Assembly: GCF_001428665.1 (NCBI RefSeq) | Contig: NZ_LMIJ01000011.1 | Coordinates: 664,251-728,250 of the forward strand | Length of the DNA stretch: 64,000 bases | Source of the DNA: Acidovorax sp. Root219 | Lineage (GTDB): Bacteria; Pseudomonadota; Gammaproteobacteria; Burkholderiales; Burkholderiaceae_C | Reading direction: 5' to 3' | Shown here: one piece after another, positions 11,810 to 52,365 of the stretch | Numbering within the stretch: the stretch's first letter is position 1 | Layout of the letters: the number at the start of each line of letters is the position of its first letter | The notes under the pieces: generated by a model | The model's input: only the letters and a program-made list of their open reading frames with translations | Databases searched by the model: none | Told to the model about the DNA's origin: nothing | Translations under genes and position numbers: made by a program

Positions 11810-11861
11810 GATGCCTGAAACCGGTCCTTCCGGCTGCTGCCTCGGGCCGATGGCCCTGGTT

Positions 11862-35848: not shown

Positions 35849-36376
35849 ATGAAGCGTTTCATGCAAAAGGGTTTTACCCTGATCGAATTGATGATCGTTG
35901 TGGCGATCATCGGTATTCTGGCTGCTGTGGCTTTGCCTGCTTACCAAGACTACACCGTGCGTGCCAAGGTGACTGAAGCCGTGATCGCTGCCAGCTCGCC
36001 TAAGAGCGCGATGTCCGAAGCCTTCCAGACCGACGGTATTGGTGGCCTGACGGCAGCAGCCGGTGCACTGAACACCGCCGCGGTCGCTACCAAGCAATCG
36101 AAGTACGTGAAAGACTACGCAGTCGGCACCGCTACACCTTGGTCCATCACTGTGACTGTGTCTGCCAACGCTGGCAACGGTATCCCGACCGGCCTGGACG
36201 GCAATACTTTGGTCTTCACACCCAATGTGAACCAGATCGCGCCTACGTCTACTTCCCAAGGCGCTATTGACTGGGCATGTGCTTCGATCACCAACAAGAG
36301 TGCAGAGAACCGCGGCCTGGGTAGCCGTCCGGTGGGCACCCTGCCTTCCAAGTACGCGCCTTCCGAGTGCCGTTAA
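35849..36376 (+). CDS. pilA: Type IV pilin (major pilin candidate, first copy)
   Basis: A 175-residue prepilin. A short eight-residue leader MKRFMQKG precedes the cleavage site G8/F9, then [20 protein letters not shown] with Glu at mature position 5, the class IVa pilin hallmark. The C-terminal half has a disulfide-loop pair, Cys in DWACAS and in the terminal SECR. The mature protein is rich in Ser/Thr, compatible with O-glycosylation. It is expressed from a sigma-54-type promoter and closed by a strong terminator. The pilin at 39559 shares the N-terminal helix and the C-terminal KYAPSECR but diverges in between. Confidence 0.95.
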
Positions 36377-36407
36377 TTTTTGGTCCAGCCTAAGCGGACC
36401 ATTTTCT

Positions 36408-36440
36408 AAAAAGCGAGGCTTTGCCTCGCTTTTTTTATTT
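36408..36440 (+). terminator. Rho-independent terminator after pilA
   Basis: AAAAAGCGAGGC (36408-36419) pairs with GCCTCGCTTTTT (36423-36434) over a TTT loop, followed by a T-rich tail to 36442. It separates the abundant pilin transcript from the glycosyltransferase gene, whose start codon lies only about ten bases further on. Confidence 0.9.
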
Positions 36441-36449
36441 TTGATTACC

Positions 36450-38327
36450 GTGCGTATATTTACTCCTGCCCCTCGCGCCTTGTGGCCTTTTGGTTTGCTG
36501 CTTGCTGTAGTTGCCAGTCTCTATGGTCAAAGTCTCGGCTTTGGCTATATCTGGGACGACAATTCTTTGTTTGTGGACAATACCATGTTACGAGAGGGCG
36601 TCTGGAGTTGGGCAGCTGTTGCTCGCCCCATCTTACCGGATACTTCTTATTTTCGTCCACTGGTACTCACCACCTGGATGGCGGAGATGCAGCTTTTCAA
36701 GCTGACGCCTCTATACTCCCATTTGATCAACGTGATACTCCATGGCATCAATACATGTCTGGTTTATGTCATTGCATGCGCAATATATGGATCTCGGGAT
36801 AAGACGCGAATTGCAGCTTTAGTCGCCGCATTGATTTTCAGCGCTCATCCATGTCTGGCAGAGGGCGTGGCCTGGATTTCCGGACGCTTTGACCTGCTGG
36901 CAACGACCATGCTGTTGGCGGGCTTTGCCACTGCTATGGCTCCCGCCACTGTATTTCGTTGTATGGCAGTCGGTATTTTTGCGCTAGGCGCATTATTTTC
37001 GAAGGAAACGGGTATATTGTTTGCCCCCTTACTGGTACTTCTCGCCATCGCTCGTAGTCCGGGCCGACCGCTTCGAGTTACGCTTGCTGATCTCTGGCCT
37101 TACCTGTTGGTATCTGCAGCTACAACGATTATTTATTTCATTCTGAGACGGCAGGCTCTGGGAGTTGTATCATATTCAGAATTCGGTTTGATGCAGTTGG
37201 CAAGCGGTTTCGCAAACTATGAATTCTGGATGCGAGCGCTTTCGTTCTATACGTTCATGGGCTTTATGCCCTTCAGCTCCATCAGCCCTCAGCATGATAT
37301 TTTGTTGGAGCTGGCTTCGGCTCGGCAGCATATAGCTGCTCTTGCGGTAGCTTTGGCAATTTTGGCGGTGGTAGTTTACTTTGCAATAAAACGTCAAACT
37401 TGGGCCATTCTATGGATTGGATTTTATGCAGGAATTTTCCCGGTTTTAGGTATTTTGTCTATTCGGCTTGCAGATACTATCGGCGCTGAACGGTTCATGT
37501 ATCTGCCGCTGGTCATGCTCGCACTTGCCTCTGTGGCATTATTTCTTGAAATCCGTGACAAATACCCGCTGCAGCGAATAATCTCTTTGATGGGCGCGGC
37601 TGTGGCTGGGGGCTGGCTCGTGTTGTCGCTTTTGGTAACTTACACAGTCACATCCATGTGGGAGAGCGGAGTAAAATTGTGGAGTTGGCAGTACCAATCT
37701 CGCCCGGAAAATCAGATGGTGCTGATGAACTACCTCGTCCATCTGTCGAGTTCCCGAGAGCCCGAGCTGGAAAAAAAGTTTGAGATCGAGATTGAAAAGA
37801 TCCAATCCAGGAACAGGGGGCGTCTGCCGATGGAAGTGCAGGGTATCTATGCTATTTACTTGTTGACTAAACAGAATCCTGAGGCAATTCCTTACTTGCA
37901 AGGGTTGGTAGACAACTCTGTGGGTATTTGGGATCAACCCAGGGAGCAATTGGGGTTGATGAAAAGCCTGAAATACTCAAGCATTTTGGCTAATTATGCG
38001 CAGGCCCTTATGATATTCAATGGTGATCTAAAACTCGCTCGTGAAACTTTAAATCGATCCAAAGCTCTTACAGGGCGAGGAGGGGAATTCCAATTTGTTC
38101 ATTCCATGATTGCGTTGGAATACCTGGCTGGCAATAAGGCTGACGCATTGAATTTGTACCGTGAAAACTTGGAGATGCTTCATGCTTATGACATCCATAA
38201 AATGCACGCGTCCATTCGGACCCTGATTCAATTCACGTGCCTGCAATTGAAGGGTGAAAATTGTAAGCCTCAGGCTTTGGAATTTATAGAAGAACTAAAG
38301 AAAGAAAGCCTAGTGCCGTCTCGGTAG
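36450..38327 (+). CDS. Polytopic GT-C-type glycosyltransferase, candidate pilin glycosyltransferase (TfpW-like)
   Basis: A 625-residue membrane protein with about ten to twelve helices in the first 430 residues and a soluble helical, TPR-like C-terminal part. The first loop contains YIWDDNSLFVDN with paired acids (Asp36-Asp37), the place of the catalytic acidic motif in GT-C enzymes. Next come RPLVLTTWMAEMQ and NVILHGINTCLVY, as in the DUF1736/PMT-like group. The start is taken as GTG 36450 (TTG 36441 is the alternative), because the terminator covers anything earlier. Position next to pilA, with pilin accessory and D-arabinose genes following, suggests transfer of a lipid-linked sugar to the pilin. 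That function is inference. Confidence 0.65.
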   Translation: MRIFTPAPRALWPFGLLLAVVASLYGQSLGFGYIWDDNSLFVDNTMLREGVWSWAAVARPILPDTSYFRPLVLTTWMAEMQLFKLTPLYSHLINVILHGINTCLVYVIACAIYGSRDKTRIAALVAALIFSAHPCLAEGVAWISGRFDLLATTMLLAGFATAMAPATVFRCMAVGIFALGALFSKETGILFAPLLVLLAIARSPGRPLRVTLADLWPYLLVSAATTIIYFILRRQALGVVSYSEFGLMQLASGFANYEFWMRALSFYTFMGFMPFSSISPQHDILLELASARQHIAALAVALAILAVVVYFAIKRQTWAILWIGFYAGIFPVLGILSIRLADTIGAERFMYLPLVMLALASVALFLEIRDKYPLQRIISLMGAAVAGGWLVLSLLVTYTVTSMWESGVKLWSWQYQSRPENQMVLMNYLVHLSSSREPELEKKFEIEIEKIQSRNRGRLPMEVQGIYAIYLLTKQNPEAIPYLQGLVDNSVGIWDQPREQLGLMKSLKYSSILANYAQALMIFNGDLKLARETLNRSKALTGRGGEFQFVHSMIALEYLAGNKADALNLYRENLEMLHAYDIHKMHASIRTLIQFTCLQLKGENCKPQALEFIEELKKESLVPSR

Positions 38328-38604
38328 AGGTGCGAGGGCCGCCGGAGTGCTTCTAAGCGTGTGTCGACGGCATTCCGCGCGATCCCCACTCGACTGGATA
38401 CACATACATGACTTGCGCTTTGGGTACTTCCGATGCGAAACTTCTACACGGTTGTCTTGGGGTGCTCTGCGAATCAGTTCTGGCCTGCAGAGTTCGGATC
38501 GAAGTTTGCACCAGTCCGCATGGCCCCAAAGGGACCATGGGTGGTAGGGACAGCAGACATATCGACCGCTGGGATGTACCTTTGTGGAATTTTATGACTC
38601 ATGC

Positions 38605-39429
38605 ATGAATATGAATTTCGTCAGTTCTAAATTAATTTTCAGATTTCGATCTTCCGCGCCTTGGGCTTTGCGACACCTCATTGTTTCTGCTGCAATTGCC
38701 GGTTTTATAGCATTGCTGATTATGGGTGTATGGTTTCCACAGCCCTATCTGGATATTTCAGGCGCATGGAAGCTTTTTTTCTTGATCATGCTTGTTGACG
38801 TGGTGTGTGGGCCTACCCTTACTCTTCTATTGATTCATCCTGAAAAGACGCCCAAGGCTATATGGATAGACATTGCTCTTATTTTTTTTGTGCAAATGGC
38901 AGCCTTGGGTTATGGTGTGCACAGCCTTAGCGAAGCGCGGCCAGTTGCTTTGCTGTTCGAAGTAGATCGCTTCCGGGTTGTGAGCTACGCCGACATCGAT
39001 ACATCGCAACCTGAAACCATTCCAGAGTGGGTTGGTGCTTTGCGTTTTGAACCGCCCCGTATTCTTGGGATTCGCAGCGCAAGAACCCCGCAGGAGAAGG
39101 CGGAAAGTGTGGATGCGTCGCTGCAAGGTGTGGAGCCTGGTCAGCGCCCAGACTGGTGGCAGGCTTATGAGCTCAGCATTCCCCAAGTGAAGTCTCGGGC
39201 AATGCCATTGGACGCCCTGCTTGCATTGAACCCACAACTGACGGAACGCATTCAGCGCCATGCGGCGAAGGCCGCCGAAAAAGGCGATGGGCGGCAAGAT
39301 GCGCTGAGGCCTGAAGAACTCTTGTGGCTACCCGTCGTGAGCCGGATGTCAATGGGTTGGGTCGCATTTGTCGACCCGCTCAGTGGGCGTATCCGCGGTT
39401 ATGTTGAAGCAGATGGCTTTGGTTCATAA
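38605..39429 (+). CDS. TfpX/TfpZ-family type IV pilin accessory protein
   Basis: A 274-residue protein with three to four N-terminal helices (about 22-115) and a C-terminal extracytoplasmic domain. RHLIVSAAIAGFIALLIMGVW and WYPQPY-like WFPQPYLDISG, then LVDVVCGPTLTLLLIHPEK and DIALIFFVQMAALGYGV, match the TfpX/TfpZ pilin accessory family known beside divergent pilins in Pseudomonas and Moraxella/Eikenella-type loci, where it promotes pilin assembly. Start at ATG 38605 (38611 also possible). The preceding 277 bp (38328-38604) contain no gene I can support. It immediately precedes the second pilin. Confidence 0.8.
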   Translation: MNMNFVSSKLIFRFRSSAPWALRHLIVSAAIAGFIALLIMGVWFPQPYLDISGAWKLFFLIMLVDVVCGPTLTLLLIHPEKTPKAIWIDIALIFFVQMAALGYGVHSLSEARPVALLFEVDRFRVVSYADIDTSQPETIPEWVGALRFEPPRILGIRSARTPQEKAESVDASLQGVEPGQRPDWWQAYELSIPQVKSRAMPLDALLALNPQLTERIQRHAAKAAEKGDGRQDALRPEELLWLPVVSRMSMGWVAFVDPLSGRIRGYVEADGFGS

Positions 39430-39508
39430 ATTTGCTGTTTATGCGCCATTCGCATCTTTTGGGCTATGTTGTGACCACCAGCCTGTTGTACGCGCCCGCA
39501 GTTGATCT

Positions 39509-39523
39509 TGGAATGCTCCTTGC
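39509..39523 (+). promoter_or_regulatory. Candidate sigma-54 promoter of the second pilin gene
   Basis: TGGAAT (39509-39514) and TTGC (39520-39523) give the GG-N10-GC spacing with a perfect -12 element and two mismatches in the -24 element. The predicted start is near 39535, about 24 bases before the pilin ATG. It is weaker than the promoter of the first pilin. Confidence 0.55.
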
Positions 39524-39558
39524 ATACACCAGCAACATTGACCAGATTGGAGCCACAT

Positions 39559-40095
39559 ATGTCACATCTTACTCATCCTTACAAAGGTTTTACCCTGATT
39601 GAGTTGATGATTGTGGTGGCCATCATTGGGATCCTGGCTGCTGTGGCGCTGCCGGCCTATCAGGATTACACGGTCCGCGCCAAAGTGGCGGAAGCGTTGG
39701 TTGCAACTGCTCCAGGCAAGGAATTGCTCAACGAGTCGTTTCAGGCCGGAGGAATCACTGGCATGGATGCTGCAGCTGCCGCCTTCAATTCTGCGACTGC
39801 CAGCTTTCGCGCCAGCAAGTATGTCAAAGACGTCACCATTGTTGGTGCCGCAAGTCCTTGGCCATTGGTAGTCTCCATTGCAGCAAGTGCGGGCAACGGC
39901 ATTCCAGCAGGCCTGGATGGCAACACCATTGTGCTATCCCCCAACATCAATGGCGCGGTTCCGTCGGACTCATCCCAAGGTGCAATGGATTGGGCATGCA
40001 CGAGCACGACAGACAAGCAAGCCTCGATCAGAAACTTGACAAACAGGACGCTTGGCTCCCTCCCCGCAAAGTACGCTCCTTCGGAATGTCGTTGA
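39559..40095 (+). CDS. Type IV pilin (second copy)
   Basis: A 178-residue prepilin with leader [10 protein letters not shown] (cleavage G10/F11), then [20 protein letters not shown]. The disulfide-loop cysteines lie in DWACTS and the terminal SECR. It shares the N-terminal helix, the [12 protein letters not shown] block and the C-terminal KYAPSECR with the first pilin but differs in the surface regions ([22 protein letters not shown]). It could be an alternative major pilin or a second pilin used with its own glycan. A T-run at about 40107-40115 after the stop could help terminate it. Confidence 0.93.
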
Positions 40096-40564
40096 CAAAG
40101 CGCTTGACTTTTTTTTGGGTAGCATTTTCGTCGCGAGCGGACTGCCGGGTGACCATATTTAGCACCTACGTTCCGTATAGATATGTCCTGTCAACCTGAA
40201 CGAGTGACGGAGTGCAATGCAGGCGCCGTGTGGAGTTCATCAAAATTGGCGCGGTGTTACGAGCCAGATAGTCAGCCATAGCCATAGCTTGAGGTGCGGC
40301 GAGCAACTCTCACCTCTCGATTCAGCCGGGTCGGCTGGACATCAGTCTTGAAGTCTGATCGGTTGATCATCGCTCAGCGCGGGCCTACTTTTGGCACACC
40401 CAGCGCTCAAGCCTCTGGATCTTCAGCTTGACTCTCTAGGCGGGGTGAACTTGCTGAGGTCTAGAATGCGGTAGGTCCGGGTTGTCTGCACAATTCAGAA
40501 ATCGCACGCCACACTCAGTCCATGCACTGATTCTAAACCTTCCCAATATTGCAAAGCCTCCAAA
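40096..40564. other. 469-bp noncoding gap after the second pilin
   Basis: No reading frame with family resemblance was found on either strand. The stretch begins with a T-rich segment (40107-40115) that may terminate the pilin transcript. The middle and end are mixed-composition sequence with scattered short inverted repeats, for example TCAGTC/GACTTC-like arms near 40349-40365. It could hold the remnant of a decayed gene and must contain the promoter of the downstream operon, but I see no convincing -35/-10 or -24/-12 pair. Confidence 0.5.
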
Positions 40565-42031
40565 ATGAAATTTAGCCAGGATAGGATTTTCCTGCTTGCA
40601 TGTGTGCTGTGTGGGCTTCCCGTCATGTTACCGTTCTATCCAGCCATGGTGGATGTGCCTCAGCATGCTGCGCAAATTACCGCCCTGAAGGCGTTGCTGG
40701 GTGGAAGCCCATGGGCTTTCACTGACATGTTTGAATTGCGGCTGTTTACCCCCTACTGGTTGGGATATGGGCTGGTCATGATTCTTTCCATCCCGTTCGA
40801 TGTGGTGATAGCCATCAAGATAATTATCGCGAGCGCTCAATGCCTATTTGTGTGGGCTGCGGCGAGATTCTGCATAAAAATGAAAATGCCCGCCGAATGG
40901 CGCTGGATTTTTATTATACTTCCCTTTGGATTTGCTTATCAATGGGGGTTTCTCAATTTTATCGTCGCTGCGCCCTTCGGGTTTATTTTTCTTAGTGAAA
41001 TTTCTGATTTCAAGAATAAAGATAAGCGCGATGGCTGGGTGAGGGTCGCTTTATGGGTGCATTTTCTATTCTTCGCTCATTTTTTGATAGCCGCGTTTTT
41101 CTGCGCTGCCGCTATTTTTATATTGGCCGAGCCTTGGAGCGGCATTAAAAAATGGTTTTATAAAATTCTTCCCATATTTTCAGTGCTTCCCATCACGGTT
41201 GCTTGGTTGGTGATTGGCTTCAACTCTGCTCCAGAGGCCAGGGGAAATGTAATGTGGATGGTAGGTCTTAATCGAGTGATTGAATTTTTGCCATCACTTG
41301 TCTCGGCACCCACGCCCGGTATTGGCCAGCTGATTGGGTTGACCTGCTTGATACTGCCGTTCATATGGGGGGCCCAACCCAAGCGGTCTGTTTTTTCTTG
41401 GGCGCCGTTTGGTTTGTATATTATTTGGATGATGTTTGTTCCTCATCTTTTGGGGGGTAATTATTTCACATACCAGAGATTCGGGCTGTTTGGCCTGCCA
41501 CTGTATTTTTTATGTTTTGAAATTTCCAATAAACATCCCATTCCAAGCCATTCTGCATTGGCTGGTGTGGGGTTGGCGTTGATCGCATCCTCCATCGTGG
41601 GTTGGCATTCGGTTCGGGCATTGATCTTCGAAGGTGAAGCATCTGGCTATCGGGCTGTTATGGAGAAGGCTGATCCAGGAAAAAGAATTCTGATGTTTGC
41701 ATTCAAACCGACAAGTCAGGCGTCGAGTGCCCCTCTGCATCTGCATTTTGCCGGGTGGTATCAAGCCGAGCATGGTGGTTTGGCTGAATTTAACTTTGCC
41801 CGATTCTGGGGTCTGCCTGTGAAGTACAAAATCGACGCGCCATCGGGTATTTTTTCAGGATTTGAATGGTATCCGGCAAATTTCGACTGGACTCGGAATC
41901 ACGGCGAGCTTTTTGATTATTTCTTGGTTCGTCATCCGCAGGATGCTTCCGAATGGATCAAAGAAAAATCTAACGGCGCAATGAGGCCGATTGCGAGAAA
42001 TGGCGAATGGCAGTTGTATGAAAAAAAATGA
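40565..42031 (+). CDS. Polytopic membrane protein, possible GT-C-like / GtrC-type glycosyltransferase
   Basis: A 488-residue protein with about ten to eleven membrane helices and a soluble C-terminal region. No named family is certain. The N-terminal loop FYPAMVDVPQHAAQITALK holds an Asp and a His near the first helix, where GT-C enzymes place their catalytic acid, and FTPYWLGYGLVM follows. AT-rich codon use marks it off from flanking housekeeping genes. It overlaps the GtrB-like gene by 14 bases and precedes acyltransferase and GtrA genes, the composition of a three-component Gtr system in which the third protein is a strain-specific polytopic transferase. Confidence 0.5.
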   Translation: MKFSQDRIFLLACVLCGLPVMLPFYPAMVDVPQHAAQITALKALLGGSPWAFTDMFELRLFTPYWLGYGLVMILSIPFDVVIAIKIIIASAQCLFVWAAARFCIKMKMPAEWRWIFIILPFGFAYQWGFLNFIVAAPFGFIFLSEISDFKNKDKRDGWVRVALWVHFLFFAHFLIAAFFCAAAIFILAEPWSGIKKWFYKILPIFSVLPITVAWLVIGFNSAPEARGNVMWMVGLNRVIEFLPSLVSAPTPGIGQLIGLTCLILPFIWGAQPKRSVFSWAPFGLYIIWMMFVPHLLGGNYFTYQRFGLFGLPLYFLCFEISNKHPIPSHSALAGVGLALIASSIVGWHSVRALIFEGEASGYRAVMEKADPGKRILMFAFKPTSQASSAPLHLHFAGWYQAEHGGLAEFNFARFWGLPVKYKIDAPSGIFSGFEWYPANFDWTRNHGELFDYFLVRHPQDASEWIKEKSNGAMRPIARNGEWQLYEKK

Positions 42032-42983
42032 ATTATCGGTCGTCATCCCCTGTTACAGATCTGGGGGGAATTTAAGACCGCTCTATGAACGGCTTATGCC
42101 AATTCTGGACGCTCTTGCTGTTGATTATGAAATAATCTTTGTCGAAGATGGCGGAGGTGATTCAACTTGGGAGGAAATATGTTTATTGGCGCTGAGGGAT
42201 GGCAGAATACGAGGAATTAAGCTGGCCCGAAACTATGGGCAGCACAACGCGTTGCTGTGCGGTATAAGGGCCGCCACTGGTGAAATAATAATTACTATGG
42301 ATGATGACCTGCAAAATCCTCCCGAGGAAATTCACAAGCTTCTTGCGAAAATTCGGGAGGGTTACGATGTCGTCTACGGAACGCCAGAAGAAGAAAATCA
42401 TGGATTCCTTCGAAATGCGGCATCCCGGATAACCAAGATCGCCTTGCAAAGTGCCATGGGCGTAGCTTCAGCGAGCAAGGTCAGCGCCTTTAGAGCTTTT
42501 AAAAGAAAGTTGTGCGCCGCTTTTGACGCATATCGTAGTCCTACGGTAAATATCGAAGTATTGCTGAGTTGGGCCACTACCAGTTTCTCCTCCGTCAGTG
42601 TACGCCAAGACAAGAGGATTTCGGGAGAGTCGGGATATACGCTAAGAAAATTGATGGCGCATGCAATCAATATGATGACTGGATTTTCCACTCTTCCTTT
42701 GAGAGTTGCCAGCATGATTGGATTGGTCTTTGCCTGCGGGGGAGGGGTCGTCCTTGCCTACGTCATCGCTCGCTATCTGATTTCTGGAAGTGCAGTGCCT
42801 GGATTCAGTTTTCTGGCATCTATAGTCTCCATTTTTTCCGGAGTGCAATTGTTTGCACTTGGAATTATTGGCGAATATCTTTCGCGAATGCATTTCAGAA
42901 TGATGGAGCGCCCGCCCTATGCTGTTGATGTTATTTTTGAAGTGAGCAAATCAGCACTTGCTCCCGAAATTAGGAGTGAATGA
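42018..42983 (+). CDS. GtrB/ArnC-like polyprenyl-phosphate glycosyltransferase (GT2)
   Basis: A 321-residue GT-A glycosyltransferase with two C-terminal helices. LSVVIPCYRSGGNL opens the fold; IIFVEDGGGDSTW and ITMDDDLQNPPEEI are the nucleotide-sugar and DxD metal motifs. The helices (about 232-255 and 265-295) are typical of GtrB/DPM1-type enzymes, which load a sugar from a nucleotide donor onto undecaprenyl phosphate at the cytoplasmic face. It overlaps its upstream neighbour by 14 bases and the acyltransferase gene by four. The sugar is not known; the nearby WecE-type aminotransferase gene makes a 4-amino-dideoxyhexose possible. Confidence 0.85.
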   Translation: MKKNELSVVIPCYRSGGNLRPLYERLMPILDALAVDYEIIFVEDGGGDSTWEEICLLALRDGRIRGIKLARNYGQHNALLCGIRAATGEIIITMDDDLQNPPEEIHKLLAKIREGYDVVYGTPEEENHGFLRNAASRITKIALQSAMGVASASKVSAFRAFKRKLCAAFDAYRSPTVNIEVLLSWATTSFSSVSVRQDKRISGESGYTLRKLMAHAINMMTGFSTLPLRVASMIGLVFACGGGVVLAYVIARYLISGSAVPGFSFLASIVSIFSGVQLFALGIIGEYLSRMHFRMMERPPYAVDVIFEVSKSALAPEIRSE

Positions 42984-43549
42984 TGCCATTTTTGAGTCAA
43001 GATCAATTGAATGCTTTATCCTTCAAGTATCTCGGGAAAAATGTACGCATCAGCGATAAAGCTTCAATATACGACCCGGATCGCATAGAGATTGGCGATA
43101 ATTCGAGAATTGATGACTTTTGCGTAATTTCTGGCAAGGTGGTAATAGGAAGAAATGTTCACATTGCAGTCTATAATAACGTGGCAGGCGGAGAATTAGG
43201 TGTCTTCTTGGAAGACTTTTCTGGCCTTGCCTATGGATGTCATGTTTTTTCCCAGTCAGATGACTATTCTGGGCGATCATTGACCAATCCAACGATGCCA
43301 GATGAGTTTAAAAATGAAACCAAGGCTACTATTCGTATATGCCGTCATGTGATTATTGGTGCTTGTACCATAGTGCTTCCAGGAGTAACTATCAATGAGG
43401 GCAGTGCTGTAGGGGCGATGTCGATGGTGACCAAGAGTACGGATCCATGGGCGATTTATTTTGGCATTCCCGCTAAAAAGATAAAAAATCGCCATAAAGA
43501 TCTTTTGAAGCTTGAAGCCATTTATTTGCAAAATGAGCGGTTGGTATGA
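42980..43549 (+). CDS. Left-handed beta-helix acyltransferase (WbbJ-like)
   Basis: A 189-residue hexapeptide-repeat acyltransferase. Repeats such as VRISDKASIYDPDRIEIGDNS and IRICRHVIIGACTIVLPGVTINEGSAVGAMSMVTK are clear, and the loop HVFSQSDDYSG with its His is placed like the catalytic region of galactoside/maltose O-acetyltransferases. IYFGIPAKKI is the usual C-terminal motif. It probably acetylates a hydroxyl or amino group of the cluster sugar. Coupled by four-base overlaps to both neighbours (alternative start 42983). Confidence 0.85.
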   Translation: MMPFLSQDQLNALSFKYLGKNVRISDKASIYDPDRIEIGDNSRIDDFCVISGKVVIGRNVHIAVYNNVAGGELGVFLEDFSGLAYGCHVFSQSDDYSGRSLTNPTMPDEFKNETKATIRICRHVIIGACTIVLPGVTINEGSAVGAMSMVTKSTDPWAIYFGIPAKKIKNRHKDLLKLEAIYLQNERLV

Positions 43550-43932
43550 TGCCGCGCCCTGTCTTCACCCAAATTTTGCGTTACGGAGGAGTTGGAGTTT
43601 TGTCCAATTTCCTCGGCTACATGGCTTACATAGCCATCGTGGCCGTGGGTGTGGGGCATAAGCTTGCCATGAGCTTCGTATACGCAACAGTTTTTATTAT
43701 TAGTTTCTACGGAAACAGAAAATTTACCTTCGACCACAGTGGAGCAATTGCCGCCGTGGGCATAAAGTTTGTTGCGGTGTATGCGTTAGGGTACTTGATA
43801 AATCTTTGTCTGCTATTCTTCTTGGTGGATAAACTGGGTTATAAGCATGAAATTGTGCAGTTGATTGCTATTGGCGTAATTGCAATACTGAGTTTCATTT
43901 TGTTGAAATTTGTTGTTTTTTCAAAAAAGTGA
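43546..43932 (+). CDS. GtrA-family membrane protein (first copy)
   Basis: A 128-residue protein with four helices and the GtrA pattern: ILRYGGVGVLSNFLGYMAY at the N terminus and FYGNRKFTFDH in the middle loop. GtrA proteins are thought to flip or escort polyprenyl-phosphate-linked sugars across the inner membrane. It overlaps the acyltransferase gene by four bases and follows the GtrB-like gene, completing a likely GtrA/GtrB pair. A second GtrA gene lies at 47417-47818 with the dprE genes. Confidence 0.9.
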   Translation: MMPRPVFTQILRYGGVGVLSNFLGYMAYIAIVAVGVGHKLAMSFVYATVFIISFYGNRKFTFDHSGAIAAVGIKFVAVYALGYLINLCLLFFLVDKLGYKHEIVQLIAIGVIAILSFILLKFVVFSKK

Positions 43933-44166
43933 TTTTTTGTAGAAAATATGGCTGATTGACTTTCATGCCAATGCATTGAGGAGGTGCTGATCCTGCCTGG
44001 AAAAATTGGGGTTTCCGTCCCCAAAAATAAGTCACTCGGTCCTCTGCGAGTGGTAGGCTCACCGCTCTGGTTGACTTACATTCAGCAGATCCATGTGTTT
44101 GATGCACGAGCTCGACAGCGTGACTTAGATATCCACGGGGCCTGCGTAAGCTATCGCGAAAAGATT

Positions 44167-45297
44167 ATGAAAAAAATACCATTCAATAAGCCGTACATGA
44201 CGGGCAAGGAGCTCTGGTACATAGCGCAGGCCCATGCCCAAGGCCATTTGGCAGGAGACGGCAACTTCACCAAGCTGTGCTCAAGGTGGCTGGAGCAGCG
44301 CACGGGTGCCACGAAAGCGCTGTTGACCCATTCGTGCACAGCAGCGCTCGAAATGGCAGCCATGCTCGCCAATCTGGGGCCGGGTGACGAGGTGATCATG
44401 CCCTCCTACACCTTCGTTTCCACAGCCAATGCGTTCGTGCTGCGCGGTGCGATCCCTGTGTTCGTGGACATCCGGTCCGATACGCTCAATATTGACGAAA
44501 CCTTGATCGAAGCAGCTATCACCCCCCGTACAAAAGCGATTGTGGTAGTGCACTATGCAGGGGTGAGTTGCGAGATGGACGAGATCATGGAGATCGCCAA
44601 GCGCCACGAACTGATCGTGATCGAGGATGCTGCGCAAGGCATCATGTCGACCTACAAAGGGCGTCCCTTGGGGTCGATCGGGCACATGGGGTGCCTGAGC
44701 TTCCATGAAACCAAGAACATCATTTCCGGCGAGGGGGGGGCACTGCTCATCAACAATCCAGAGTTTGTTGACCGGGCGGAGATCATCCGCGAGAAGGGAA
44801 CCAACCGCAGCCTGTTCTTTCGTGGGCAGGTGGACAAGTACACCTGGTGTGATCTGGGATCGAGCTTTCTTCCTGGAGAACTGATCACTGCCTTTCTATG
44901 GGCGCAGATGGAGGCCGCAGACTCCATCACCGCACAGCGACTCAGCCTGTGGAGTCAGTACCACCATTCTCTGGAGGCGCTTGAAAGCACGGGGCGGATA
45001 CGTCGCCCCATCGTGCCGGACCATTGCCAGCAGAATGCGCACATGTACTATGTGCTGCTACCGGATCTCGATTCCCGCACGATGTTCATCGAGCGATTGA
45101 AAACGCTTGGGATCGGTGCGGTATTCCACTATGTTCCCTTGCACTCGGCACCCGCGGGCCGCAAATTTGGCCGCCCGCATGGATCAATGGACGTGACCGA
45201 CAGCCACTCTGCGCGGCTTGTCCGCCTTCCCTTGTGGATGGGACTGGAAGAGCATTTCGATGAAGTTATCGCGGCGGTGGGCGAGTCCCTGGCATAG
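44167..45297 (+). CDS. dTDP-4-amino-4,6-dideoxygalactose transaminase (WecE/RffA-like)
   Basis: A 376-residue PLP aminotransferase of the DegT/DnrJ/EryC1 family. IPFNKPYMTGKELWYI is the characteristic WecE N terminus; THSCTAALEMAA binds the cofactor phosphate, and the PLP lysine is Lys183 in FHETKNI, followed by EGGALLI. It would make dTDP-Fuc4N from a 4-keto sugar and glutamate. Start at ATG 44167; the frame is open back to 43984 but that extension has no family similarity. The preceding 234 bp (43933-44166) are otherwise empty. dTDP-glucose synthesis genes are not in the window and must be elsewhere. Confidence 0.9.
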   Translation: MKKIPFNKPYMTGKELWYIAQAHAQGHLAGDGNFTKLCSRWLEQRTGATKALLTHSCTAALEMAAMLANLGPGDEVIMPSYTFVSTANAFVLRGAIPVFVDIRSDTLNIDETLIEAAITPRTKAIVVVHYAGVSCEMDEIMEIAKRHELIVIEDAAQGIMSTYKGRPLGSIGHMGCLSFHETKNIISGEGGALLINNPEFVDRAEIIREKGTNRSLFFRGQVDKYTWCDLGSSFLPGELITAFLWAQMEAADSITAQRLSLWSQYHHSLEALESTGRIRRPIVPDHCQQNAHMYYVLLPDLDSRTMFIERLKTLGIGAVFHYVPLHSAPAGRKFGRPHGSMDVTDSHSARLVRLPLWMGLEEHFDEVIAAVGESLA

Positions 45298-45343
45298 TCC
45301 CTGCCCCGCGCTAGGACGAGTTCGTTGCGCTCGGACGCGTGGC

Positions 45344-46120
45344 TCAGATCCGCAGCCGGTTGAAGACAAAGCGCGGAAGGTGGCGTATCACCAGCATGAT
45401 CAACCACCATTTGCCGGGGGCGTAGATCTCGGCCTTTCCTTTGTCCGCTGCATCGACGATAGCCCGCGCTACGTCTTCCACGGTAGCCAAGGCCACGCCC
45501 TGTTCTGTCAGATGGGCCGTCATGGGGGTCGCGGTGGGCCCCGGCTTGACCAGCAGCACGTTCAGATTGCGGCAACTGCTTGCCACACGGTGCTGGAGGC
45601 CCTGAGCGTACAAGCTGAGCATGCCCTTGGCTGCTCCATAGACATAGTTGGATTGGCGGCCACGTTCGCCCGCGACCGAGCTGATAAGGATGATCGTTCC
45701 TTGGTCGGCGGGAACCATGCGTGCCGCAAAGGCTTCTGCAAACAAGGCTGGTGATACGCCGTTGATTTCGAGTTCGTCGCGGCACGCGTGAAGGTTAGTC
45801 TGGCATGCAGTCTGGTCTGGCAGTGACCCGTGGGCGATCAAAACGATATCAGGCAAGCCCGCCTCGCAAATTGCCAAGGCCGTTCCATCGATGGACGTTG
45901 CGTCGAGAAAATCGATTGTGAGCGACGTGAAGGTTGATGTTGGCGATCGTACGGCCAGATCGGCAATGGTCCTTTGGAGCTTGGCCTCATTGCGTCCGAC
46001 CAGAACCATGTCCGCAGACCCCTTGGTTATCCACAGGCGGGCACAGTGCTCGGCCATGGCGGAAGTCGCTCCAATGATCACGATGCGCTGTCGTGGTTGT
46101 GTGTGCGGTGAATGTGTCAC
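45344..46120 (-). CDS. dprE2: SDR oxidoreductase, DprE2-like (decaprenylphosphoryl-2-keto-pentofuranose reductase)
   Basis: A 258-residue short-chain dehydrogenase. The NAD(P) loop is IVIIGATSAMAEHCARLW, then LVGRNEAKL; the catalytic residues are Ser in ISSVAGERG and the YGAAKG tyrosine/lysine pair. The segment LLVKPGPTATPMT and the hydrophobic C-terminal tail match the DprE2 group. With DprE1 it would epimerise the 2-position of polyprenyl-phosphoryl ribose to give polyprenyl-phosphoryl-D-arabinose. The start is a GTG at 46120, one base after the dprE1 stop, with GGGAG upstream. Symbol assigned by homology and operon context. Confidence 0.85.
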   Translation of the reverse strand: MTHSPHTQPRQRIVIIGATSAMAEHCARLWITKGSADMVLVGRNEAKLQRTIADLAVRSPTSTFTSLTIDFLDATSIDGTALAICEAGLPDIVLIAHGSLPDQTACQTNLHACRDELEINGVSPALFAEAFAARMVPADQGTIILISSVAGERGRQSNYVYGAAKGMLSLYAQGLQHRVASSCRNLNVLLVKPGPTATPMTAHLTEQGVALATVEDVARAIVDAADKGKAEIYAPGKWWLIMLVIRHLPRFVFNRLRI

Positions 46121-46121
46121 A

Positions 46122-47420
46122 TCAGCTCCCTAGAAGGCGGCGCGACATCGACGAGGTGATGCCGGGGTCGCGAAATGGCAAAAACTCCGCTAGGCGCGGA
46201 TACCCGGATTCAAACATCCGGCGGGACATGCGTGCGTCCTTGGCGGGGTAAAGGGTGCCGCCAGCAGCGAGCACGATCTCATCCAGTCGCGAAAACAGGC
46301 GCAGGGTGCTGTCCCGGCGATTCGGAAAGTCCAGTGCCAGCGTGACACCGGGACGTGGGAAGCTGAGCATACCGGGGCCTGCTCGGCTGCCAAATGTCTT
46401 GAGCACGGCCAAGAACGAGCCCTCCCCGCTACGTCCGATCTCACGCAGCATTTCCCGGGTAGCGTCGGGCCCTGCAGCGCGAGGCACGACGCTTTGGTAC
46501 TGGTAAAATCCCTTGGGACCGTACATGCGGTTCCATTCAAGCAGTCCGTCTAGCGGATAGAAAAAGGGCTCGTAATGCGCCACGGCCTGCCCCGCCTTCC
46601 AGCGCTGGAGACGGTGGTAGGCGATATTGAAGGGCCGCAAGGTCATATGGTTGACGAGCGACACGGGTGGCGTGACGGGCATGCGCCGGGTACCGGACTT
46701 GGGCAAGGGCCCGATTGTCGCGGCAGAGGGCTTGGCGCGCATGAAGATTCCGCGTGTGCGTTCACCGGAAAGACAATCTATCCAGGAAACGGTGTGCTCC
46801 CATGCAGCCTCGCTGGCATCCGACAAGCCGAAGAATTCGTCCAGGCTCCCGTACGGAATAGTCTCTGTGTCCAGCCAGGGGCCGGATATGCGGCGCAACT
46901 TCAGTTCCACCCGAACGATGACACCCGTCAGGCCCATCCCTCCGATGGTGGCGAAAAACCATTCACTCGCTTGGCCCCTTGTGCATTCGATGATTTGGCC
47001 ATCGCTGCGTGCCAGCCACAGGCGCAGGATCTGATCACCGAAGCTGCCCATCGCGTGGTGATTCTTTCCATGCACATCGTTGGCCACTGCTCCGCCCACG
47101 GTGACAAACTGGGTGCCTGGCGTCACGGGTAGCATCCAGCCTTTGGGAACAAACGTCTGCTGTATATCCCGCAGAAGCACCCCTGATTCGCAAACCAACA
47201 TACCTGTCTCGGCGTTCCAGCTGCACAAGCGATCCAATCCTCTCGTATGCCAGAGCACTCCGCCTGGATTGAGGCACATGTCCCCATAGCTGCGGCCGTT
47301 GCCGTAGGCGATCCCGGGGGCATGGGTCTGCATCGCCTCTGCGACGCGAGAAGGGTCAACCAGTGGGATAACGTGGTGCGGGCCGGCGCTCAGCCTTCCC
47401 CATGATTGCATGGACCTCAT
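46122..47420 (-). CDS. dprE1: FAD-binding oxidoreductase, DprE1-like (decaprenylphosphoryl-beta-D-ribose 2-oxidase)
   Basis: A 432-residue VAO-type flavoprotein. GNGRSYGDMCLN (41-51) and HGKNHHAMGSFG (117-128) are the FAD-binding motifs diagnostic of DprE1. GPKGFYQYQ, FLAVLKTFG and the YPAKDAR lysine (394) line the active site as in the mycobacterial enzyme. At the position of the Mycobacterium tuberculosis cysteine targeted by benzothiazinones (Cys387) this protein has Ala362 in TLALDFP. It oxidises C2 of polyprenyl-phosphoryl ribose. It overlaps the upstream gtrA as ATGA, and dprE2 follows with one base between. Confidence 0.9.
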   Translation of the reverse strand: MRSMQSWGRLSAGPHHVIPLVDPSRVAEAMQTHAPGIAYGNGRSYGDMCLNPGGVLWHTRGLDRLCSWNAETGMLVCESGVLLRDIQQTFVPKGWMLPVTPGTQFVTVGGAVANDVHGKNHHAMGSFGDQILRLWLARSDGQIIECTRGQASEWFFATIGGMGLTGVIVRVELKLRRISGPWLDTETIPYGSLDEFFGLSDASEAAWEHTVSWIDCLSGERTRGIFMRAKPSAATIGPLPKSGTRRMPVTPPVSLVNHMTLRPFNIAYHRLQRWKAGQAVAHYEPFFYPLDGLLEWNRMYGPKGFYQYQSVVPRAAGPDATREMLREIGRSGEGSFLAVLKTFGSRAGPGMLSFPRPGVTLALDFPNRRDSTLRLFSRLDEIVLAAGGTLYPAKDARMSRRMFESGYPRLAEFLPFRDPGITSSMSRRLLGS

Positions 47421-47818
47421 CCCGCTGCCTTGAACACGTAGCGCTGGTCCAGGTGGTACTTGACCGCATAGCCCATGGCCAACCCCAACGCGCCACCCAG
47501 GTAGCGCATCTCACGCGAGCCTTCGAACAAGGCGTGAAAGCCAAATTCGAAGCACCAAAAGACCAGTGTGGTCAGCAATCCCATCACCGTGTATAGCGCG
47601 AAGGTTCGGGTACTGTGGGCCGCGTCTCGCGCCCGGAACTTGAAGATGTAGCGCTTGTCGAGCAGGTACTTGACGATCAAGCCTGCGGCCGTACCTACGA
47701 TGACCGACGCCAGGACGTGCAACGGCCCGCCGTACATGCGCAAAAAGGCATCCTGGGCGCCAATGTTGACAGCTGTGGCAACCGCTGCCAGCAATGCATA
47801 GAGCAATGCAATCCTCAT
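47417..47818 (-). CDS. GtrA-family membrane protein of the D-arabinose operon
   Basis: A 133-residue, four-helix protein. The loops VKYLLDKRYIFKF and VKYHLDQRYVFKA are GtrA-type positive patches, and TLVFWCFEFGFHALF is a helix of the same family. It is the first gene of the gtrA-dprE1-dprE2 operon, overlapping dprE1 by four bases. In Mycobacterium tuberculosis the GtrA-type gene Rv3789 sits in front of dprE1-dprE2 (Rv3790-Rv3791) in the same order. Likely role: presentation or flipping of polyprenyl-phosphoryl-arabinose. Start at ATG 47818; only 41 bp separate it from the divergent ubiA-type gene. Confidence 0.88.
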   Translation of the reverse strand: MRIALLYALLAAVATAVNIGAQDAFLRMYGGPLHVLASVIVGTAAGLIVKYLLDKRYIFKFRARDAAHSTRTFALYTVMGLLTTLVFWCFEFGFHALFEGSREMRYLGGALGLAMGYAVKYHLDQRYVFKAAG

Positions 47819-47859
47819 GGTGCAGAATCCATGCTTTGTCGCACAGGTATATAAACGGC

Positions 47860-48744
47860 ATGCATGATACCCCGCCATCCGTCACGTCTATGAAGAGGTG
47901 GTCGGGCCTTTTGAGGCTGATGAGGCCGCAGCAGTGGATCAAGAACAGCTTTGTGCTGGCGCCCTTGGTGTTTGCCGGCGCGTTCAAAGATCCACATGCC
48001 ATCGCGCAGGCCCTGCTCGCCATGGCACTGTTCTGTGTCGCATCTTCCGCAGCGTACATCGTCAATGACATCAAGGATGTCGAGCGTGATCGTATGCATC
48101 CCAAGAAATCCAAAACGCGGCCATTGGCTGCGGGCATCGTGAGGAGGTCAGAAGCTCTGGCGTTGGTGGCTCTGCTCTATGGCGTGCTTGTATGGGGATG
48201 GTTTCTCCAACCTGCCGTGGTACTGGTGATTTGTGGCTATTTGGCACTAAACTGGGCATACAGCTTTGGGCTCAAGCACCAGCCCGTGTTAGACATTTTC
48301 ACCGTGGCCTTTGGATTTGTGTTGCGGGTCTATGCGGGCGCTCAGGCATTGTCAGTGCCTGTCTCGTCCTGGATGTTTATCACGACACTGTGCCTCGCTC
48401 TGTATTTGGCTGCGGTCAAGCGGCGCCAGGAACTGAGCCACCGCGGCAGCGAGAGCCGAGAAGTGCTTGAGCAGTACACCGTGGCCCTGGTTGATCGCTA
48501 TGCAGAGATGGCTGCGACAGGTGCTCTGGTGTTTTACAGCATGTTTGTCATGTCGGCACAGCCTGAACTGGTCATTACCGTGCCAGTGGTGTTGTTCGGC
48601 CTCTTTCGCTACTGGTTTGTGGTTGAAAGGCTGGAGGGAGGGGAGTCTCCGACTGATGCTCTGCTGTTCGACCTGCCGTTGCTTGCCACGGTACTGGTGT
48701 GGATTGGCGCGTGCCTCTGGGTTCTTTGGCCCGCTTCCCATTGA
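47860..48744 (+). CDS. UbiA-family prenyltransferase, probable polyprenyl-phosphate phosphoribosyltransferase (Rv3806c-like)
   Basis: A 294-residue protein with about eight to nine helices. RLMRPQQWIKNSFVLAPL opens the fold; the first aspartate-rich motif is YIVNDIKDVERDRMHPKK with TRPLAAGIV, and the second region is YSFGLKHQPVLDIFTVAFGF. These match the decaprenyl-phosphate 5-phosphoribosyltransferase branch of UbiA rather than quinone prenyltransferases. It would transfer 5-phosphoribose from PRPP to a polyprenyl phosphate, the first committed step of D-arabinose donor synthesis. ATG 47860 is used; 47890 is an alternative. Divergent from gtrA-dprE1-dprE2. Confidence 0.85.
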   Translation: MHDTPPSVTSMKRWSGLLRLMRPQQWIKNSFVLAPLVFAGAFKDPHAIAQALLAMALFCVASSAAYIVNDIKDVERDRMHPKKSKTRPLAAGIVRRSEALALVALLYGVLVWGWFLQPAVVLVICGYLALNWAYSFGLKHQPVLDIFTVAFGFVLRVYAGAQALSVPVSSWMFITTLCLALYLAAVKRRQELSHRGSESREVLEQYTVALVDRYAEMAATGALVFYSMFVMSAQPELVITVPVVLFGLFRYWFVVERLEGGESPTDALLFDLPLLATVLVWIGACLWVLWPASH

Positions 48745-48752
48745 CGACATCC

Positions 48753-49175
48753 ATGGACCTTTCATACGCCTTAACCCCCTTTCTCGCCTGGCTGGCGGCG
48801 GGTACGTTGAAGTTCATCATCAATAGCGTCAAATCAGGCCAATGGGCGTTTGGCCTGATTGGATACGGTGGACTACCCAGTACGCACAGCGCCATCGTCA
48901 GCAGTACCGTCACACTGGTTGCCTTGCGGGAAGGCATTGACCATCCGGCATTTGCAGTGGCAGTCACGTTCGCCTTTGTGGTCATGCTGGATGCCAACAG
49001 CCTCCGTCGCCAAGTGGGAAAGCATGCAGAAGCAATCAATCGGCTGGCTGACAAATTGAAGTGCTATGAAAAAAAACGCCTGCGCGAACGTATGGGACAT
49101 ACGAAATTGGAAATAAGCATTGGCGTTCTTGTCGGAATTGGTGTCGCGGCCTTAGTCTACCTATGGCGGGTATGA
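48753..49175 (+). CDS. Divergent PAP2-family (DUF212) membrane phosphatase
   Basis: A 140-residue membrane protein of the divergent PAP2 family. GGLPSTHSAIVSSTV holds the PSTHS motif of the acid-phosphatase fold, and VMLDANSLRRQVGKHAEAIN is the second conserved block. Eight bases downstream of the UbiA-type gene, so one transcript. The expected role is removal of the 5-phosphate from polyprenyl-phosphoryl-phosphoribose, giving the DprE1 substrate, in place of the PAP2 enzyme Rv3807c of mycobacteria. This role is inferred from context. Confidence 0.8.
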   Translation: MDLSYALTPFLAWLAAGTLKFIINSVKSGQWAFGLIGYGGLPSTHSAIVSSTVTLVALREGIDHPAFAVAVTFAFVVMLDANSLRRQVGKHAEAINRLADKLKCYEKKRLRERMGHTKLEISIGVLVGIGVAALVYLWRV

Positions 49176-49326: not shown

Positions 49327-52300
49327 TTACTTTTGAGTCATACTTGCTGCCATGGCATTCAAAAGTCGTCGTTGCTTTTGGTAGTCTCCAATGGAAATTA
49401 TATTTTTACCTATTGTAGATTCTGCTTCCATGATTTTTTCCCATTGTCCACTATGGGCATGGCTAAGATATACGGCTGACAAGGCAATATCATTGAATTC
49501 TCTACGTGTCACTTTGCCGTCAGTTGATTTTTCCAGCCATTCTCTTCCTCTTCGGTTCATTTCAGTGTAGCTTCTATCTGAAATGGCGGCCAACAGCCCG
49601 ATCGCTTCCGAAATGTCGTTAGGTATATTCGTGCACTTCTGCCATGCAGGATTGGTCCAGGCACCTTTCATCGTATCTTCCGACAGATAGGGGATTGTGG
49701 ATTCATGGAATTCCCTCAAGAGAGCGGAGAACCGCTGTGTGTAATTATCCGTACGGTTGTTGCATTGGGCGGCAGCTTCCCGCAGCAAGGTCGCTGGCGT
49801 AAGCGATCGTCTATCAACTATGTGAGGGGCCATAGCGGTTCCATCTCCACCATTCAGCTCGGTCAGCAAAGCGCGCGCGCGCCATGTATTGAGTTCCGCA
49901 GGAAAATGTTCCACCTTACTGGGCTCCATGGACTGCGGGAAGGGCTGTCGTACACCCAAAGCCTCGAGGAACGGAGTGGATTGGTAAGGAATCGACAATA
50001 GACCTTCAGCAAAAATGCCTTTGAAACGGGTTTTGGGAGCCACAAGACCCAGAATGGGGTGATAGTCAGAATTGGCCGGAAAATTAGCATAGGCGTGCGT
50101 AAAGCCTCTGAGCATTGGAGCATCCGCAATCTTTCTAAAGCGCACATGCTCGGATCGAGTCAGTCCCTGTCGCGCCAGTTCGGCGGTCAAGGCACCGTCA
50201 CTTAGAATGTTTGCCAAATCCTCTTTCGGCAGCGGCCCTTTTGGACTGGCGACAATAATGAGATCTGTACTGTTGGATATCCAAGCACTATAGTCCTCGA
50301 AGGCGGGTGTCATGGCTTTCAGAATGGATCCGATAAGAGCATCGTCTATTTCATATAGTTGAATCCATTGTACGAACAGTCCTCCTTCAGCTATGTGCCG
50401 CGGAATAAATTTGTAGAACTCCGAAGAAAATAGTGCTCCGACTCCGCTGATCCACGGATTGGAGGGTTCGGAGATGATGACGTCATATTTAAGGCTTTGT
50501 CCTGAGAAATAAGTTTTTGCATCATCAACAATAATGTGGGAGCGAGGGTCGGTGAATGCCCGCTCCACCCTGGGACCGAAAAGTCTTGCGCCTTGAATCA
50601 TTGCTTCTTCTATCTCAATGGTGTCAACGCGCTTGACCCGCTGGTCACCAAGAAGGGTGTGAGTTGTCAGGCCAGAGCCAAAGCCGATCACGCCTATTTT
50701 TTGAGGGGACGCATGCATGGTCAATGGCAATGCTGCCAACAATGCCATGGTGGGCTCGTCTGCTGTCGGGCCAATGCCGGGGGCCATCATGATCGCTGCA
50801 TCGGGCTTGCCATTAGTTGCAATGGCCAACGCACCTGGCTTCGTATTGATAACCGATACACTCGCCGTTTTCCCGTCTTTGTAATAGACAACCTCACTGT
50901 CTTTGGATACGCTGCTTTTTCCATGACGGAACACTCCGGACGCCAGCTGCATTGGGTCGAAAGGAACTCGGAATGCCAAGACAATAGCCAGCAGGGAGCT
51001 GGCAGCAGCGAGTGCAAAGGGAAACAGTTTTCCACTGCTTTTGGCATGCATGCGAATGAGGACCAGACCCACCGCAAGATCAATGACTGCAGCAACGCAT
51101 AGTGATAGTTTCAAGCCAATATTGGGGATAAGAAAGTGAATAGCGAAAAATACCCCAAAAATTGCCCCAAAAGTATTCCAGGCATACACCCTTCCGATAG
51201 ATCGCTCGCCGTAACTATTTTGAAGTAGCGCGATGGTAAAAAGCGGGAGCGTTGTGCCAGCAAAAAAGGCAGCTGGTAGCATGACGATTATTGCTATGGC
51301 TGCTGTTCCGGCGTTGAATAGGGCATATCCAGCATCTGTTCTCGCGAGGGCCTCCATGATCCAGCCAACCCAGGAGAAGGAATTGGCATAGACAGCAAGA
51401 GAACCAAGAGCCGCAATGCCCATAAAAATCTGCATCCAGCCAGCCAAGCGCAGGGGCTGTTGAGTTTTGCTTGCGTGGTTGCGAACCCAGAGGCCGCCGA
51501 ACGCGATGCCTGCGATAAAAGCTGCAAGCATGAGTTCAAATGAATGCATGGTGCTTCCGACGGCCATGCTCAGCATTCGAATCCAGACTATCTCGTAAAT
51601 AAAGGAGGCTGCACCAGAGAGTGCAGTTCCAAAAAGCACCGTCCGGAGTAGTGGACTGTGACCTAATCGCTGCTCTGTCTGCACGTTGAAGTCTGAGGGC
51701 TTCACCGGTTCAGGCTCGCGAGCCAGCCACCAGGCCAACGCAGCAACGGCGAAATTAAGCATCGCGGCTGCGACCATGGCCCCCGGTAATCCAACTCGCG
51801 GGAGGAGTATAAAAACGGCGACCAAAGCACCAATGGCGGCGCCAATGCTGTTGGTGAAGTAAAGTCCACCGAGGACATTGCCATCATTTCCGGGAAATCT
51901 TCTTATAATTCCCCCGCTCATCAGTGGAAAAGTCATTCCAAGAAGGATGGTCTGGGGAAGAATAAGTAGCGCTGCGACAAGCCATCGTGCGATATTGATT
52001 GCCGATGTGTCACCTAGTGCTGGAAAGAGGTGGTCATAACTGATTTCTGCCACGCCTGTGAAAAGATGATGGAACAATAGGCCAAATATTCCGATTACCA
52101 CTTCGATAATTGCATAGCCCCGGATAAGATTGCGCCATTTTTGGCCCGCTTTGGCAATCCATGCGGCGCCGGCCGCCATGCCGCCCATGAAAATCGCAAG
52201 GACCAGAGCCTGTGCGTAGGCTGCATGGCCAAGAAATAGCCCCAAATAGTGGGTCCAGATGGATTGATAGATCAGTCCGGCAAAGCCTGAGAGAACGAAG

Positions 52301-52365
52301 ATGGCCAGTAGCCAGAATCGGGCACGATGGGGCGAGGGGGTCATCAACAACTGCTCCAGTTTCAT
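49327..52365 (-). CDS. Fused MFS-like transporter / spermidine synthase-like protein
   Basis: A 1012-residue protein. The first part holds about 14 to 16 helices in two segments (residues about 15-220 and 240-480). Next comes a soluble spermidine-synthase-like Rossmann domain (about 500-760) with IGVIGFGSGLTTHTLL, VDTIEIEEAMIQGA and VIISEPSNPWISGVGALFSSEFY. The putrescine-binding residues of true spermidine synthases are not obvious, so methyltransferase or aminopropyltransferase activity is unproven. A C-terminal region of about 250 residues is unrelated. A second start, ATG 52344, has GGAG at a good distance and may be the real one. It lies downstream of the glycan island. Confidence 0.8.
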   Translation of the reverse strand: MKLEQLLMTPSPHRARFWLLAIFVLSGFAGLIYQSIWTHYLGLFLGHAAYAQALVLAIFMGGMAAGAAWIAKAGQKWRNLIRGYAIIEVVIGIFGLLFHHLFTGVAEISYDHLFPALGDTSAINIARWLVAALLILPQTILLGMTFPLMSGGIIRRFPGNDGNVLGGLYFTNSIGAAIGALVAVFILLPRVGLPGAMVAAAMLNFAVAALAWWLAREPEPVKPSDFNVQTEQRLGHSPLLRTVLFGTALSGAASFIYEIVWIRMLSMAVGSTMHSFELMLAAFIAGIAFGGLWVRNHASKTQQPLRLAGWMQIFMGIAALGSLAVYANSFSWVGWIMEALARTDAGYALFNAGTAAIAIIVMLPAAFFAGTTLPLFTIALLQNSYGERSIGRVYAWNTFGAIFGVFFAIHFLIPNIGLKLSLCVAAVIDLAVGLVLIRMHAKSSGKLFPFALAAASSLLAIVLAFRVPFDPMQLASGVFRHGKSSVSKDSEVVYYKDGKTASVSVINTKPGALAIATNGKPDAAIMMAPGIGPTADEPTMALLAALPLTMHASPQKIGVIGFGSGLTTHTLLGDQRVKRVDTIEIEEAMIQGARLFGPRVERAFTDPRSHIIVDDAKTYFSGQSLKYDVIISEPSNPWISGVGALFSSEFYKFIPRHIAEGGLFVQWIQLYEIDDALIGSILKAMTPAFEDYSAWISNSTDLIIVASPKGPLPKEDLANILSDGALTAELARQGLTRSEHVRFRKIADAPMLRGFTHAYANFPANSDYHPILGLVAPKTRFKGIFAEGLLSIPYQSTPFLEALGVRQPFPQSMEPSKVEHFPAELNTWRARALLTELNGGDGTAMAPHIVDRRSLTPATLLREAAAQCNNRTDNYTQRFSALLREFHESTIPYLSEDTMKGAWTNPAWQKCTNIPNDISEAIGLLAAISDRSYTEMNRRGREWLEKSTDGKVTRREFNDIALSAVYLSHAHSGQWEKIMEAESTIGKNIISIGDYQKQRRLLNAMAASMTQK

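Follow-up and report, generated by a model that had tools for sequence, protein, structure and literature searches.

In the group IV pilin system of Pseudomonas, D-arabinofuranose is attached to the type IV pilin, according to the accessible portions of PMC12369383 and PMC11841053, and the latter source, in the same portions, reports TfpW as the pilin arabinosyltransferase of Pseudomonas paraeruginosa. Here we describe an apparent relative of that system in Acidovorax sp. Root219, encoded in a stretch of 64,000 nucleotides of contig NZ_LMIJ01000011.1 (positions 664,251 to 728,250, forward strand), hereafter the window. Its region 35849-49175 contains genes for two pilins, a TfpX/TfpZ-type protein, an enzyme with a GT-C (glycosyltransferase C) fold, and UbiA, DUF212, DprE1, DprE2 and GtrA proteins (Table 1). 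Judging from sequence, this island would make polyprenyl-phosphoryl-D-arabinofuranose, and its TfpW-type GT-C enzyme would attach D-arabinofuranose to type IV pilin, a reading to which we assign a probability of about three in four.

The GT-C enzyme encoded directly downstream of the first pilin gene is a protein of 625 residues. It shares 30% identity over 612 alignment columns (E 1e-70) with a protein (locus L110) that we take to be the TfpW of Pseudomonas strain PA7, an identification made from gene order and the length of TfpX. In a quick tree that contains long branches, L092 among them, the two proteins lie on the same supported branch. Alignments covered 36 of 98 homologues in one set and, in another, 45 of 80 together with the window's own protein. 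Neither Pfam nor NCBIfam yields a match, and the predicted structure is confident and has the GT-C fold. For this protein, as for a second GT-C enzyme of the window (GTC488), the fold assignment comes mainly from VIA-align, Foldseek matches at E <= 0.001 being few (two and five, respectively); the structural matches to Emb, AftA and AftB are evidence of a shared fold only. On the strength of its sequence, the gene is a TfpW homologue.

The donor of this enzyme is assigned through its co-occurrence with DprE1. Among 299 genomes of the window's family, the enzyme (threshold E 1e-10) is found in six and DprE1 (threshold E 1e-60) in 34, and all six genomes with the enzyme also have DprE1. With the window's own genome excluded, the comparison is 5/5 against 33/298 (p 1.3e-5). 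One genus contributes two of the five; with a single genome counted per genus, p is about 1.3e-4. Similarly, a search of 398 Pseudomonadaceae genomes with a Pseudomonas homologue of the enzyme found it in eight, every one of which is among the 54 with DprE1. When the genome that had entered the set through DprE1 (G300) is left out, the figures are 7/7 against 53/397 (p 5.3e-7). Co-occurrence of the two proteins beyond chance is therefore seen in two families. Their genes lie no more than 8 kb apart in five of the six genomes of the window's family and in four of the eight Pseudomonadaceae, and in the Pseudomonas set some DprE1 proteins are close (60-65%) and others more distant (42-52%).

The five genes of the donor cassette form a predicted full set for polyprenyl-phosphoryl-D-arabinofuranose. 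DprE1 aligns with the solved mycobacterial DprE1 over query residues 6-417 and retains the HGKNHH and AKD motifs. Among solved structures DprE2 best matches the reductase chain in the entry for the DprE1-DprE2 complex, the next best having an e-value of only 1e-9, while UbiA finds just two solved structures at E <= 0.01, both of them decaprenyl-phosphate phosphoribosyltransferases. GtrA2, DprE1 and DprE2, on the minus strand, diverge from UbiA and DUF212, and the cassette DNA has a single matching stretch in the genome.

A complete minimal version of the island is found in another genome, G289 (L090), where pilA, a TfpW-type gene, DprE2, DprE1, GtrA, UbiA and DUF212 follow one another, ending just before moaC. 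It occupies about 6.5 kb including pilA, and its G+C content is 0.41-0.56 against 0.61-0.71 in the surroundings.

From these observations a route can be proposed. UbiA would join phosphoribose to the polyprenyl carrier, DUF212 would remove the phosphate, and DprE1 with DprE2 would turn ribose into arabinose by inversion at C2. GtrA2 could then move the arabinose lipid outward, so that the TfpW-type enzyme might transfer the sugar, in the periplasm, to Ser or Thr of PilA1, PilA2 or both. The hairpin after pilA1 may hold enzyme levels low in comparison with those of pilin; the TfpX/Z-type protein may help the pilus to assemble.

Several observations weigh against this reading. The 30% identity to TfpW is low, and DprE1, DprE2, UbiA (216 bits against a named-enzyme cut-off of 234 in NCBIfam) and TfpZ all score below their curated cut-offs; given its score, DprE1 is termed DprE1-type and kept out of the curated model. 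The co-occurrence p-values overstate the association, the genomes being related. A TfpW-like match (1e-6) is present in only 5 of 32 genomes picked through DprE1, and in two of these five (G302 and G319) no pilin gene directly adjoins the TfpW-like protein in the region seen. Nor does the Ser/Thr content of the window's pilins differ from that of pilins encoded at the corresponding site in genomes of the same genus that lack a TfpW-type enzyme, and enrichment in these residues was accordingly dropped as a sign of glycosylation.

The arabinose lipid could instead be destined for a different surface polymer (O-antigen or capsule, for example), with the adjacency to pilA coincidental and the TfpW-type enzyme moving some other sugar, such as the product of the glycosyltransferase family 2 (GT2) enzyme encoded nearby. 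Most DprE1 genomes do lack the enzyme (28 of 34 in the window's family and 46 of 54 in Pseudomonadaceae), so the donor must usually serve other ends. DprE1 is common, with at least 589 confirmed stretches in the genome collection; among the best 80 of these loci, which were inspected and many of whose contigs are short, DUF212-UbiA is often divergent from GtrA-DprE1-DprE2, and only two (L003 and L008) have pilA, a GT-C gene and TfpZ beside dprE. In a third (L002), pilA-GT-C-TfpZ-pilA lies about 17 kb from dprE on the same contig, its GT-C protein being 55% identical to the window's. A second donor set, moreover, exists in the window. We nevertheless regard this explanation as unlikely: the enzyme and DprE1 co-occur in two families, and the L090 island keeps the enzyme and the arabinose genes together with no second donor set beside pilA. 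That the roles are reversed, with the arabinose lipid feeding GTC488 and the GT2 product feeding the TfpW-type enzyme, seems more doubtful still: DprE1 accompanies TfpW-type genes in 14 of 14 sampled genomes and GTC488-like genes in four of seven, and the pilin arabinosyltransferase reported in the accessible portions of PMC11841053 is homologous to the window's TfpW-type enzyme, not to GTC488. Finally, a same-genus locus (L135) has a protein with Wzy_C and PglL_A domains beside pilA at the same site, raising the question of whether the window's enzyme belongs among the PglL or TfpO-type ligases and transfers a whole O-antigen unit to pilin. The sequence largely refutes this, and we give it almost no credence, the protein being a TfpW homologue of GT-C fold without a Wzy_C or PglL match in Pfam. 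Arabinosylation of pilin by the TfpW-type enzyme thus remains the reading we prefer.

Table 1. Features of the pilin island and the gene that closes it, in window coordinates.
Feature	Position	Strand	Evidence
PilA1, type IV pilin, likely acceptor	35849..36376	+	PF00114 1.2e-14, PF07963
Terminator-like hairpin in the gap between pilA1 and the TfpW-type gene	36408..36434	+	12-pair stem and T run
TfpW-type GT-C enzyme (GTC645), likely pilin D-arabinofuranosyltransferase	36450..38327	+	TfpW homology, tree, GT-C fold
TfpX/TfpZ-type pilin accessory protein	38605..39429	+	NF041437 5.1e-50, 170 bits, below cut-off 200
PilA2, second pilin	39559..40095	+	PF00114 6.5e-13
GTC488, second GT-C enzyme, predicted to transfer the second sugar	40565..42031	+	model pLDDT (predicted local distance difference test) 93.0, GT-C fold; no Pfam match
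ArnC-like GT2, predicted polyprenyl-phosphate sugar synthase	42018..42983	+	PF00535; PRK10714 8.7e-53, 179 bits of 529
Hexapeptide acetyltransferase	42980..43549	+	PF00132 3.2e-13
GtrA1, predicted lipid-sugar flippase	43546..43932	+	PF04138 3.6e-16
WecE-type transaminase	44167..45297	+	PRK11706 626 bits, TIGR02379 618 bits, both over cut-off
DprE2, predicted 2-keto reductase	45344..46120	-	21gq_C 5.1e-25; NF053786 147.5 bits of 250
DprE1, predicted polyprenylphosphoryl-ribose oxidase	46122..47420	-	21gq_A 8.7e-72; PF01565; NF053785 341 bits of 500
GtrA2, predicted flippase of arabinose lipid	47417..47878	-	PF04138 1.4e-8; NF037976 over cut-off
UbiA-type phosphoribosyltransferase, start 47860 or 47890	47860..48744	+	8j8j_D 1.8e-37; NDIKDVERD motif
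DUF212 phosphatase candidate	48753..49175	+	PF02681 2.6e-35
Fused MFS (major facilitator superfamily)/spermidine-synthase-like protein, 1012 aa; closes island	49327-52365	-	NF037959 over cut-off

The island lies between a metallo-hydrolase gene (34.8 kb) and moaC (52.6 kb), and Table 1 gives its genes in order. Much of this layout had been described in a sequence-only reading of the same DNA, and holds on closer analysis: both pilin genes match PF00114, the TfpX/TfpZ-type gene is present, albeit with a score below cut-off, and the polytopic GT-C-like gene placed straight after pilA begins exactly at 36450. The complete candidate donor set expected about 8 kb further on starts 7 kb past the GT-C gene and 9 kb past the first pilA, and its open frames, Pfam matches and solved-structure matches agree, Pfam showing DprE1 as an FAD-binding oxidase and DprE2 as a short-chain reductase. 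Absent from that description were GTC488 and the second lipid-sugar module, between the pilins and the donor cassette. Its proposals of a TfpW-type enzyme and of D-arabinofuranose glycosylation of pilin by genes beside pilA are likewise supported, at the level of sequence, by the TfpW homology, the shared tree branch and the co-occurrence in two families, from which we infer the sugar itself. The 1012-residue protein that closes the island has a 26% relative at the DUF212 end of a Hydrogenophaga island (L003/L091).

The predicted fold of the gap between pilA1 and the TfpW-type gene (36377-36449) is unusually stable (z -6.35, with none of 200 shuffles as low), and a hairpin is also present 3' of pilA at two other loci, L090 (z -6.30) and L088 (z -4.78). 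A terminator scan overall returned 18 sites against 15.2 in shuffles, with no excess. The accessible portions of PMC11841053 describe a terminator between pilin and accessory gene as a trait of pilin-accessory cassettes.

The second module comprises GTC488, the ArnC-like GT2 (its ATG at 42018 picked by eye), the acetyltransferase, GtrA1 and the WecE-type transaminase (its start set from alignment to models). GTC488 was considered as a second TfpW and ruled out, there being no similarity between the two (E 0.23). One Pseudomonas locus (L114) also has an ArnC-like GT2, GtrA, WecE, an acetyltransferase and a second GT-C enzyme. Downstream of the Mitsuaria island, at 15948-21300 of L008, LuxC- and LuxE-type genes are found with a WecE relative; lying about 6 kb past the GT2 gene and beside these genes, that WecE was not counted as evidence of the same module. 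The other kind of GT-C enzyme that adjoins TfpW in a Pseudomonas locus (L112) was not found in the window's genome, in a search that had no positive control. Rather less firmly than for arabinose, it may be suggested that the module adds a second, 4-acylamino sugar. We raise only tentatively the idea of a two-donor pilin glycan, in which GTC488 would use a lipid-carried 4-acylamino-4,6-dideoxyhexose to cap or branch a D-arabinofuranose chain made by the TfpW-type enzyme, the whole having spread at the pilA site as a cassette subject to exchange. If true, it would be a Gram-negative counterpart of the amino-sugar-decorated mycobacterial arabinan.

The G+C content per kb is 0.42-0.61 at 36-53 kb and 0.60-0.71 in the rest of the window. 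The same site carries different cassettes in three genomes of the same genus. In G262 the interval between hydrolase and moaC contains pilA, a Wzy_C/PglL-type ligase and TfpZ, while in G085 it contains two pilins and TfpZ. The third, G187 (L137, 2739-15235), has two pilins, a 682-residue protein without a Pfam match, two GT2 enzymes, an acetyltransferase and a DegT transaminase at its pilA-moaC site; its genome has DprE1 elsewhere and no TfpW-type gene. The low G+C content and the differing cassettes together support the acquisition of the island, which the sequence-only reading had also suggested, and by its gene content the pilA-to-moaC site is one that exchanges pilin-modification cassettes. 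Arabinosylation of pilin gives resistance to pilus-specific phages, according to the accessible portions of PMC12369383, which would explain the exchange. Further afield, one TfpW locus of Pseudomonas (L117) encodes an LPG_synthase_TM protein (10859-11863) between UbiA and DprE1, and a deltaproteobacterial contig has a weak GT-C645-like match (L041, 4899-6500; 24% over 253 residues) 3' of DprE2.

These results point to pilin arabinosylation, which has been documented in one Pseudomonas clade, as a portable cassette present in both Betaproteobacteria and Pseudomonadaceae. TfpW-like genes beside pilA would be a usable genomic marker for D-arabinofuranose chemistry, and the L090 island offers a compact set with which to reconstruct protein D-arabinofuranosylation outside mycobacteria. 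A literature search, mostly without subscription papers, found nothing joining arabinofuranose or DprE1 to pilin in proteobacteria or Acidovorax, nor decaprenylphosphoryl arabinose to Gram-negative type IV pili.

Among known systems, the arrangement may be compared with the ArnC/ArnT pair of lipid A modification, since an ArnC-like GT2 adjoins a GT-C enzyme of ArnT-like fold; the likeness extends in L088 to a small EamA/SMR-type protein that comes next. The window differs in its pilin context, its WecE-type transaminase and acetyltransferase, and a GT2 score far under the ArnC equivalog cut-off. With the mycobacterial decaprenyl-phosphoryl-arabinose pathway the window shares homologous UbiA, DprE1 and DprE2 and, with the Emb/Aft acceptor enzymes, the GT-C fold. 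The acceptor is predicted to be pilin here, and is cell-wall galactan in mycobacteria. DUF212 and GtrA adjoin the donor genes in the window, whereas mycobacteria use other proteins in those roles. The DprE1 proteins also differ: Ala362 of the window's protein aligns with the Cys of mycobacterial 'NICVDF', presumably the residue bound by benzothiazinones.

The group IV system of P. paraeruginosa PA7 and Pa5196 (pilA-tfpW-tfpX plus PSPA7_6245-6251), characterized by alpha-1,5 D-arabinofuranose on pilin, has in common with the window a pilin, a terminator, a TfpW-type GT-C enzyme and, as a candidate in the window, a TfpX/Z protein. Its UbiA, DUF212, GtrA, DprE1 and DprE2 genes (L110, L111) also show the divergent arrangement seen in the window. 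The window's DprE1 is 43% identical to that of PA7. In that system the pilin cassette lies about 1.15 Mb from the sugar cluster but in the window the two are within 9 kb, and the window adds a second pilin and the second donor and GT-C module. The core of the locus is a further member of the known TfpW system; what is new is its assembly in a single island at an exchangeable pilA site, together with the second donor module.

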